Origin: Gloeobacterales cyanobacterium ES-bin-313
GTDB taxonomy: Bacteria; Cyanobacteriota; Cyanobacteriia; Gloeobacterales; Gloeobacteraceae
Direction of reading: 5' to 3'
Length of the DNA stretch: 33,352 nt
Assembly: GCA_014379585.1 (NCBI GenBank)
Contig: JACMLN010000028.1
Span: forward strand, 1-33,352
The notes under the pieces were generated by a model. The model did not search any database. It was not told the origin of the DNA and worked only from the letters and a program-made list of their open reading frames with translations. Each line of letters opens with the position of its first letter. Positions within the stretch are counted from its first letter, which is position 1. Position numbers and translations under genes: made by a program. This document shows positions 8,363 through 10,896 of this stretch, one piece after another.

Positions 8363-9121
8363 ATGGGTAATTTTTTTATGCAGCGCATGGGTTTCAACAC
8401 TGGTATTGAACCTTGGGATATCGGCATTATTTTTGTGCTGGTTTTTATTGAAGGTGCTTTAAGCGCTGACAATGCAGCCGTTCTGGCTGTGTTGACCCGA
8501 ACATTGCCCACCCCTGCTGAACGCAAGAAAGCTTTGCGCTATGGGATCGTCGGAGCTTTTGTATTTCGATTTATCTCCGTTTTTTTTGCGTCCTGGCTGA
8601 TCGACAACTGGCCTCTCAAACTGGTCGGTGCTGCCTACTTGATCTATCTTTCTTTGAACCACTTTTTGAGCCATAAGAGCGAGGATGTCCAAGCAAATTT
8701 GCCCTTCGCTGGCAGTCCGCTCTTCAACGCCACTCTCGGAAAGCTGTCTCCGTTTTGGCGAGTGATTATCCTTGTCGAATTGACAGACATCGCTTTTTCG
8801 GTGGATTCGATTACCGCTGCTGTTGCTTTTAGCGACAAAGCTTGGGTCGTGATCGCTGGCGGTATCCTTGGCATTATTGCCATGCGTTACATGGCTGGAC
8901 AATTCATTCGACTCATTGTTGAGTACCCACGACTTGAAACGGCAGCCTTTGCGTCGGTTGGGTTTGTGGGCATCAAAATGTTTGTAGAAGTGCTGTTCAT
9001 GGCCTTTGGTAGCGAGTACGAGGTTCCAGAGTGGTTCGTGATTTTAATGGTCGTCTGCATCTTTGCATGGGGATTCTCAAAAAAACGCGAAGAAGCGCTC
9101 GATTCCGAGAAATTTCTTTAA
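8363..9121 (+). CDS. TerC/DUF475-type integral membrane protein, probable metal-ion exporter
   Basis: The 252-aa protein has about seven predicted membrane segments. It shows the family's acidic intramembrane motifs: FIEGALSADNAAVLAVL near residue 28 and VELTDIAFSVDSITAAVAF near 137, each with the Asp/Asn/Ser residues thought to coordinate metal. TerC relatives (Alx, YkoY, MeeF/MeeY) export Mn2+ or supply metal to secreted enzymes. Here the role is inferred from the family alone. The ATG follows a GGAGG/GGAAGGG purine run. I did not see a yybP-ykoY manganese riboswitch in the roughly 100-base upstream region. The stop codon abuts the stop of the convergent M41 gene with no intervening base. 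Confidence 0.88.
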   Translation: MGNFFMQRMGFNTGIEPWDIGIIFVLVFIEGALSADNAAVLAVLTRTLPTPAERKKALRYGIVGAFVFRFISVFFASWLIDNWPLKLVGAAYLIYLSLNHFLSHKSEDVQANLPFAGSPLFNATLGKLSPFWRVIILVELTDIAFSVDSITAAVAFSDKAWVVIAGGILGIIAMRYMAGQFIRLIVEYPRLETAAFASVGFVGIKMFVEVLFMAFGSEYEVPEWFVILMVVCIFAWGFSKKREEALDSEKFL

Positions 9122-9820
9122 CTATACAGAACTCGCTATTTCACATAGAGAAGCATCGATCTTGCTGAGAATCGCCGCAATTGGTTGACGGTGAATCATG
9201 TTTTGGGCAACTGTGTTCACAAGGCTTTCTTGTCCACTGAGTAGCTGCTTGGCGCGCTCTTCACAGGCAGTTTGCCAAAAAGCCTGGCCGAGAGCCTTTT
9301 GCCCCTGCTCTACCAACGCACCGTCAATGGCGGCAACCCATTGGGCAAACTGGCGTAAGTCATGAGAGGCACCGTGGGCTTTGCCAAAGATCAGTTCTTC
9401 GCAGGCTTTCCCGGAGACAAGCACGGTCAGGTTGGTAAGGATTTTTTCGGGATCGAAGTGAAACTGCTCCGCTGCAAATTGGGTGTAGCCACTCGATTGG
9501 CCGAGAGCACTCGCCGCTGGGGTCAATGCATAGCCGCTGACGGTGACACCTAGGCGGTGGGCAACGATCACATGCCCCGCTTCGTGAACCGCAGCCACTT
9601 TTCTCCAGATCGGCCACTCCACATATTGATTGAGACGCAGATGCAAAAAGGTACTGAGGCGCTGCCAGGTTGGCCGGATGATGCGCAAGAGCGTAATGCT
9701 CAAAACGACAAGGCCAAAAGTCACTTCAGCCGAAAATTGCCACATTCCCCAAAACAGAAATCCGAAAACAAGTGCCAACATGCAATCGGCCAATACTTCC
9801 TTGAGAATTGCAATCTTCAA
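9122..9820 (-). CDS. Membrane-anchored M41 (FtsH-like) metallopeptidase domain without an AAA ATPase module
   Basis: The protein has 232 residues. Two hydrophobic segments at about 9-29 and 33-48 form a membrane anchor. The remainder resembles the FtsH protease domain: His79-Glu80-Ala-Gly-His83 is the zinc-binding HEAGH motif, and GASHDL around 150-155 corresponds to the FtsH GASNDL block, which supplies the third zinc ligand, here Asp154. A full FtsH has more than 600 residues with an AAA domain; none is encoded here or nearby. The zinc site looks intact, so this is probably an active ATP-independent peptidase rather than an inactive FtsHi-type protein. The start is TTG with GAGGAC about 5 nt upstream. 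The substrate is unknown. Confidence 0.85.
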   Translation of the reverse strand: MKIAILKEVLADCMLALVFGFLFWGMWQFSAEVTFGLVVLSITLLRIIRPTWQRLSTFLHLRLNQYVEWPIWRKVAAVHEAGHVIVAHRLGVTVSGYALTPAASALGQSSGYTQFAAEQFHFDPEKILTNLTVLVSGKACEELIFGKAHGASHDLRQFAQWVAAIDGALVEQGQKALGQAFWQTACEERAKQLLSGQESLVNTVAQNMIHRQPIAAILSKIDASLCEIASSV

Positions 9821-9894: not shown

Positions 9895-10896
9895 CTATCT
9901 TCGGATTGAGGGAAGGTTTTGGTAGTGATAGTAGAGCTGAGAGAGCTTTGAGATCAGTTGATTAGCTCGACGGTCATTGCGCGGACGCTCGACCATAGCA
10001 ACAGCGATGTAGCGTTTGCCATGGGGCAAGATGATGATACCGGCATCACCGACCATTTTGCCGATATCGCCCGTCTTGTGGAGAATCTGTGCACCAGGGC
10101 CAAGACCCGGTGGTAGCAAAGAGCGTATACGGGTGCGGCGCAAAATTTCGTAGGCTTGCTGGTGACTCGCGGCACTAAGCAGGTGGCCACGTTCAAGTTC
10201 GACCAAAAGCAAAGCAAGATCTTGTGGGCTAGAAGTATTTTGGCCTTTGAGGTCTGGCAAGGGCTGCCGCAGGACAGTTTTTTCGAGACCCCAGCGCTGA
10301 AATTGGCGATTGAGGTCTCCCGCACCACCCAAGCGCCGAATGATCATGTTCGTGGCCGTATTATCGCTACGCACGATCATTAAAGTTGCGATGTACAGCA
10401 GTGAGAACTGGGTGCCATTTTTGCGGTATTGCATCCAACCGGAACCACCGCCTTTGTCGGCGGGTTGCAAGATGAGCTTCTCATCGAGGCGAACTTGGCC
10501 TTGATCGACTTGGCGGAAGAGTTCTACGAGAACTGGCAACTTGATGATGCTGGCGGCACTGAAGGCATCCCCTGGACGAAGTGCTGTGTATTCTCCCGTG
10601 GCAGGTTCAAAAAACAAAAAACCACTGCGCAATCTAGAAAGCCCCGTGGCAAATTGCATTTGCTTCTCTAGGGTGCTAACTCTTGTCTTAAGACCCAAGT
10701 CTGGGTATCCCATCCACTCGCGGCGCAAACTGTCCTCAGGCACGATTTGGCTGTCGATCAGAGGAGGGTTTGTTTGCCAAAGCCAGAAAACCAGCAGTCC
10801 GGTCAAGATGCCACTGACCCAAACAAGGCGGCGCATCAGACGCTCCCCCGTCAATGCTCTGCGCTTCTGTCTGCGTTGGTTTAGGGTGTCGGTCAA
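9895..10896 (-). CDS. Membrane-anchored class A beta-lactamase-fold serine hydrolase lacking Glu166
   Basis: The 333-aa protein has a basic N-terminus and one membrane helix at about 23-40, followed by an exported class A beta-lactamase-like domain. The acyl-serine motif is Ser116-Ile-Ile-Lys119, the SDN loop is 177-179, and KTG is 274-276. In the omega loop the sequence LPDLKGQN aligns with the EPELN segment of class A enzymes, so the deacylating Glu166 appears to be Leu213 and Asn170 a Lys. An enzyme of this kind could be a cell-wall carboxypeptidase or penicillin-binding protein rather than an efficient beta-lactamase; that is inference. The start codon is TTG, with AGGA spaced 4 nt upstream; a later in-frame Met at residue 21 is possible. 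Confidence 0.85.
   Translation of the reverse strand: MTDTLNQRRQKRRALTGERLMRRLVWVSGILTGLLVFWLWQTNPPLIDSQIVPEDSLRREWMGYPDLGLKTRVSTLEKQMQFATGLSRLRSGFLFFEPATGEYTALRPGDAFSAASIIKLPVLVELFRQVDQGQVRLDEKLILQPADKGGGSGWMQYRKNGTQFSLLYIATLMIVRSDNTATNMIIRRLGGAGDLNRQFQRWGLEKTVLRQPLPDLKGQNTSSPQDLALLLVELERGHLLSAASHQQAYEILRRTRIRSLLPPGLGPGAQILHKTGDIGKMVGDAGIIILPHGKRYIAVAMVERPRNDRRANQLISKLSQLYYHYQNLPSIRR

Follow-up and report, generated by a model that had tools for sequence, protein, structure and literature searches.

FtsH proteases, which carry two membrane helices, are in the usual account understood to work through their motor, and hexamer assembly may be required for the activity of M41 domains. ATP-independent membrane metallopeptidases with an HExxH motif are represented by HtpX and OMA1 of family M48 and by the site-2 proteases of family M50; these are work-alikes of the protein analysed here, but belong to other peptidase families. 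An M41-type protein without a motor is VIR3 of the Arabidopsis chloroplast, which excerpts of its report (PMC9166295) describe as membrane-bound and devoid of an ATP-binding domain, with its HEAGH motif facing the stroma. According to these excerpts, the zinc-motif variant H239Y fails to bring back the wild-type phenotype in constant light, VIR3 binds both tAPX and GAPB and its zinc-motif mutant does likewise, and the levels of tAPX and GAPB both go down when VIR3 goes up (PMC9166295). In the same excerpts, the authors term VIR3 a putative metalloprotease, and a suggestion cited there has it acting in monomeric form or within small complexes (PMC9166295).

The protein described here is encoded in a window (the whole stretch of DNA that was analysed, 33,352 nucleotides) from Gloeobacterales cyanobacterium ES-bin-313. 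Set against VIR3 by description, within what the excerpts cover, the window protein is also without an ATP-binding domain and also has a predicted membrane hairpin and an HEAGH motif, but this motif lies at residues 79-83 and not, as in the longer plant protein, at 235-239. On the excerpted description, AAA-less M41 proteins are a kind already known through VIR3, and the window protein joins it. In the part of the open-licence literature that was surveyed, no study on cyanobacterial AAA-less M41 proteins was recognised.

An M41 domain without an AAA module

The AAA-less M41 metallopeptidase gene occupies positions 9122..9820 on the reverse strand and encodes 232 aa, from a TTG start to a TAG stop (9122-9124, reading CTA on the forward strand), as defined by its open reading frame, a PF01434 match and orthologs. 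A GAGG sequence lies 6 bases 5' of the TTG, and the ortholog from Gloeobacterales ES-bin-141 (locus L037) also shows a TTG in the corresponding place. The host genome comprises 4.26 Mb, with a completeness of 95.9%.

Pfam Peptidase_M41 (PF01434) matches residues 73-161 with 37.8 bits, above its gathering score of 29.9, though spanning only profile positions 8-97 of 191, and no AAA family is found among the Pfam matches at E<=1. These results bear out the initial annotation, which had read the 232-aa protein as an M41 domain with an intact HEAGH site and no AAA motor. The NCBIfam FtsH model TIGR01241, whose cut-off is 600 bits, reaches 34.5 in a match confined to the M41 part, and the Pfam M50 match is sub-threshold (17.8 vs 27.2). 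When the protein was compared by phmmer with solved structures, the chains matched at E below 0.01 were exclusively those of FtsH, AFG3L2 and YME1; in the best match (FtsH 2dhr), the two HEAGH motifs are aligned and Asp154 pairs with the Asp in GAxxD. The M41 domain, the HExxH motif with its Asp and the fold are common to FtsH and the window protein, whereas the latter has no AAA module, a short inter-helix loop and an M41 domain that follows directly after the membrane. On score, on HExxH plus the downstream Asp and on fold, the protein is a member of M41; on the missing AAA module and the FtsH model cut-off, it is not an FtsH.

The HEAGH zinc-binding motif (residues 79-83; 9572..9586, reverse strand) is invariant in alignment A1, which contains six orthologs. 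GAxHDLR is invariant in the same alignment, as is Asp154 within it (9359..9361, reverse strand), which does not vary in alignment A3 either. Asp154 is the presumed third zinc ligand, and we take the equivalent Asp of FtsH to be a zinc ligand. His79, His83 and Asp154, named earlier as a zinc site, are all present, and nothing in the sequences points to a site that would fail to form.

Two membrane segments had also been recognised before, and here the hydropathy maxima (about residues 10-26 and 31-47) and the model helices agree on them. They form a hairpin of two hydrophobic helices at residues ~11-47 (9680..9790, reverse strand), as seen in hydropathy and in the model. The juxtamembrane segment that follows (residues 48-73; 9602..9679, reverse strand) is conserved in A1, with R49, P50, W52, R54, L55, H60, L61, R62, N64, Q65, E68, W69, P70, W72 and R73 invariant, and in the model it joins the second membrane helix to the catalytic helix without a break.

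Prediction of the structure of the protein alone, a check suggested with the initial annotation, returned an FtsH-like M41 fold. The AlphaFold2 model has a mean pLDDT of 82.6, from an input of 10 sequences of which several are just 20-27% identical and which include M41 sequences. It consists of a helix at residues 2-23, a single long helix at 31-93 that takes in both the second membrane segment and the HEAGH helix, and then the M41 helices. Residues 101-119 fall below pLDDT 50; the equivalent stretch of FtsH flanks the active-site cleft. Superposition by VIA-align on FtsH 2ce7_C assigns the M41 fold to residues 67-226 (9143..9622, reverse strand), with Z 16.0 and rmsd 3.1 over 155 residues at 19% identity, versus Z 7.2 for the top row outside the FtsH type. 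Since residues 67-226 of the model superpose on FtsH, the M41 domain seems to be whole and to extend past the part aligned by Pfam. In Foldseek, ranks 1-49 are all FtsH-type chains, chains of the FtsHi complex among them; only 2 chains reach E<=0.001, and query TM-scores among the FtsH-type rows are 0.35-0.53. PDB 5iqj, a Vibrio cholerae protein of 125 residues with unknown function, gives Z 7.2 against the M41 model, a value above those of unrelated rows but one that helical folds can reach by chance.

Distribution of AAA-less M41 proteins

Full-length orthologs are present in all six searched genomes of the window's own family (its own included), and the other five are 52-61% identical to the window protein; the L037 ortholog, at 61% identity, was not counted as independent of that in genome G002. 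Six pairwise comparisons of four relatives, with the own genome left out, give dN/dS values of 0.15-0.21. When the window-type profile was searched against 290 genomes of the class, the best match dropped from E 2.1e-119 to 1.5e-16 outside the family, and the window type, characterised by the signatures EWPxWRR and GAxHDLR, was found in the own family only. The top matches outside the family are AAA-less frames of 222-274 aa, which, among the matches listed, belong to another AAA-less family, here called family B.

The family-B profile A2, built from ten AAA-less proteins with HExxH in 10/10 rows, matches 240 of the 290 class genomes at E<=1e-10. AAA-less M41 proteins are thus common in cyanobacteria, which the initial annotation, although it had proposed a profile search, had missed. 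Among the matches listed, family B consists of open frames of 214-333 aa with an N-terminal hairpin, HEAGH, a conserved Asp and no AAA-sized frame (221-333 aa for those listed from the 290 class genomes); some matches carry 1-2 stops inside the profile match. Among the class genomes that A2 does not match at 1e-10 are small ones of 1.6-1.9 Mb, along with others of 3-5 Mb. The window protein itself is matched by A2 over positions 8-228 (E 8.8e-20). In profile-profile comparison, the window type aligns with family B over 207 columns, the hairpin included (probability 99.5, about 19% identity), and with FtsH over 140 columns of M41 alone. The two AAA-less types have in common the hairpin followed by M41, HEAGH, the Asp, the missing AAA module and a full-length profile match, but the window protein differs from family B in its low identity and its two signatures.

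To place these proteins in the phylum, 146 genomes were drawn and searched at E<=1e-5, 68 of them from the own class and 78 from other classes, which are presumably the non-photosynthetic ones. An AAA-less match was obtained in 62/68 genomes of the own class (the own genome included); four of the remaining six match via an FtsH frame alone and two are without a match. No AAA-less match was obtained at this threshold in the 78 genomes of the other classes (0/78), one of which matches via an FtsH frame. The best E value of FtsH-sized frames against A2 in this draw was 6.1e-9. This distribution is the most useful result of the analysis. A motorless M41 set conserved in this way would mean that the peptidase half has been put to separate use, possibly close to the photosynthetic membrane, and such peptidases would offer a simple bacterial system for ATP-free substrate finding and cutting. 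The distribution alone is no proof of a tie to photosynthesis, because a single ancestral event may explain it.

A wider contig scan, which also reached other phyla, gave 11 loci, namely one window-type ortholog (L037), nine FtsH-sized frames spanning 687-1187 aa and one 232-aa Streptomyces frame, which has a very long branch and was set aside. Within the own genome, the window gene is accompanied by three FtsH-sized M41 frames (639, 623 and 765 aa) and by a second AAA-less M41 frame of the B type on contig C15. Additionally, an M41-like scrap with an internal stop (G000:C155:2791-2979, L006) scores a sub-threshold 12.9 bits and may be decayed or a chance match. A long divergent FtsH with HEAGH occurs in 6/6 genomes of the family as frames of 765-826 aa that form a clade of their own (G000:C14:22137-22661, which is L003, and L070-L074).

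Proposed function, rival readings and origin

We consider it probable that the window protein is a stand-alone, membrane-tethered and ATP-independent M41 zinc endopeptidase, albeit a putative one; the initial annotation had rightly offered a stand-alone membrane peptidase, which is also the reading favoured here. The loop of the hairpin is short and free of Lys and Arg, which lie outside the hairpin. This pattern suggests that the two hairpin ends face the cytoplasm, in which case the peptidase would work on the cytoplasmic side of the membrane. Cleavage would proceed without ATP and therefore would reach accessible substrates only, with no unfolding or threading as in FtsH. Candidate targets would be accessible tails or loops of membrane proteins, unfolded segments, and soluble partners held by binding. 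By analogy with what has been proposed for VIR3, specificity may come from binding partners and from location near the membrane. Its likely role would be to clip proteins at the photosynthetic membrane, for regulation or quality control, beside FtsH.

An alternative source of substrates, also raised in the initial annotation, would be a borrowed motor, with the window protein entering a hetero-oligomer with an FtsH of its own genome and being fed by the AAA ring. The three FtsH-sized frames of the genome speak for such an arrangement, as do the heterocomplexes reported for cyanobacterial and chloroplast FtsH in the excerpts of PMC9020784. The guest would, however, have to bridge the depth of an AAA domain with a linker (residues 48-73) that is short, strongly conserved and helical in the model, and we regard this alternative as unlikely. 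It is likewise doubtful that the protein is a non-cleaving adaptor or scaffold for partners, in which zinc would be structural only. In favour of such a role are the zinc-motif mutant of VIR3, which in the excerpted report keeps its binding of tAPX and GAPB (PMC9166295), and the plant FtsHi proteins, which excerpts of PMC8197885 present as pseudo-proteases with functions. But a scaffold could do without the catalytic Glu, whereas HExxH with this Glu is retained in 6/6 orthologs and in 10/10 rows of A2, and the function of VIR3 requires the zinc motif as far as the excerpts go (PMC9166295). That the gene is merely a fragment of a disrupted ftsH, a pseudogene, is almost certainly wrong. The missing AAA module is the sole point in its favour, and it is contradicted by orthologs of similar full length in every searched genome of the family, by purifying selection among the four relatives compared, by the protein's own hairpin and by its whole M41 fold; moreover, the gene is flanked by a beta-lactamase-like gene and terC, with no AAA remnants. 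On these grounds the fragment was excluded.

The origin of the protein, as distinct from its function, was addressed with two unrooted trees. The first left the window group unplaced, with a support of 30/0; the second, from which ten non-cyanobacterial loci (L038-L047) were dropped and to which eight rows were added, split 26 AAA-less rows from 16 FtsH rows with a support of 98/95. Long branches drew a warning from the tree program. Separate descent from the family's divergent long FtsH, and not a paralog of the AAA-less family, would be suggested by two observations: the long FtsH is the sole FtsH of the own genome that the window protein matches at E<=0.001 (32% identity, E 1.9e-6), and a single clade uniting the long FtsH with the window type is not rejected (p-AU 0.099). 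Against this origin, which we hold to be improbable, the window type matches the AAA-less family over its full length, hairpin included, in profile comparison, and the well-supported branch of the second tree has 26 AAA-less rows together on the same side, subject to the low support in the first and to the long-branch warning. It is therefore likely, though not proven, from the sequences that the window protein is a second, family-restricted paralog inside the AAA-less group; we go no further than likely because the trees differ in support, the branches are long and the grouping with the long FtsH is not rejected.

In the thylakoid-less Gloeobacter lineage, photosynthesis takes place at the plasma membrane. 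A tentative scenario, which we would not yet put on an equal footing with its negation, is that an ATP-independent M41 branch was present in the class ancestor, was inherited by chloroplasts as the VIR3 type and was duplicated in this lineage; the window protein would then be the second copy, with a plasma-membrane target of its own.

Genomic neighbourhood

The M41 gene is convergent with terC (8363..9121, forward strand). Their stop codons abut at 9119..9124, TAA at 9119-9121 and TAG at 9122-9124, with zero bases between them, exactly as had been pointed out before, and a terminator scan gave no site near this junction. When the 34 ORFs of the window were compared by tblastn (E<=1e-5) with the 17-18 kb around the ortholog in five relatives, the M41 gene alone was matched. 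Because the link to terC is not kept in these relatives, we take the stop-to-stop contact as incidental. A mobile origin was rejected: scanning viral contigs yielded 40 pattern matches and no relative, and tblastn against plasmids matched 5 of 72,556 records, none covering >80% of the query.

In four of the five relatives, G001 (L065), G002 (L069), G003 (L066) and G005 (L068), the gene immediately upstream of the M41 ortholog, in the same orientation, is CobB/CbiA-like. The copy in G002 shares 64% identity with the other three, and the assignment comes from a Pfam run on one copy. No such gene lies within 17 kb around the ortholog of G004, and a single protein query, run without a positive control, gave no CobB/CbiA match in the own genome; for these two reasons a functional pairing of cobB with the M41 gene is not claimed.

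In the window, a gene of the Beta-lactamase2 family (9895-10896, reverse strand) precedes the M41 gene in the same orientation, at a distance of 74 bases. It remains under the cut-offs of those NCBIfam beta-lactamase models that were listed (25 vs 83) and has, by eye, an N-terminal membrane segment. Around family-B AAA-less M41 genes, one related gene adjoins in 6/20 loci (L018, L019, L025, L027, L033 and L034), and both copies tested are VanY-type D,D-carboxypeptidases.
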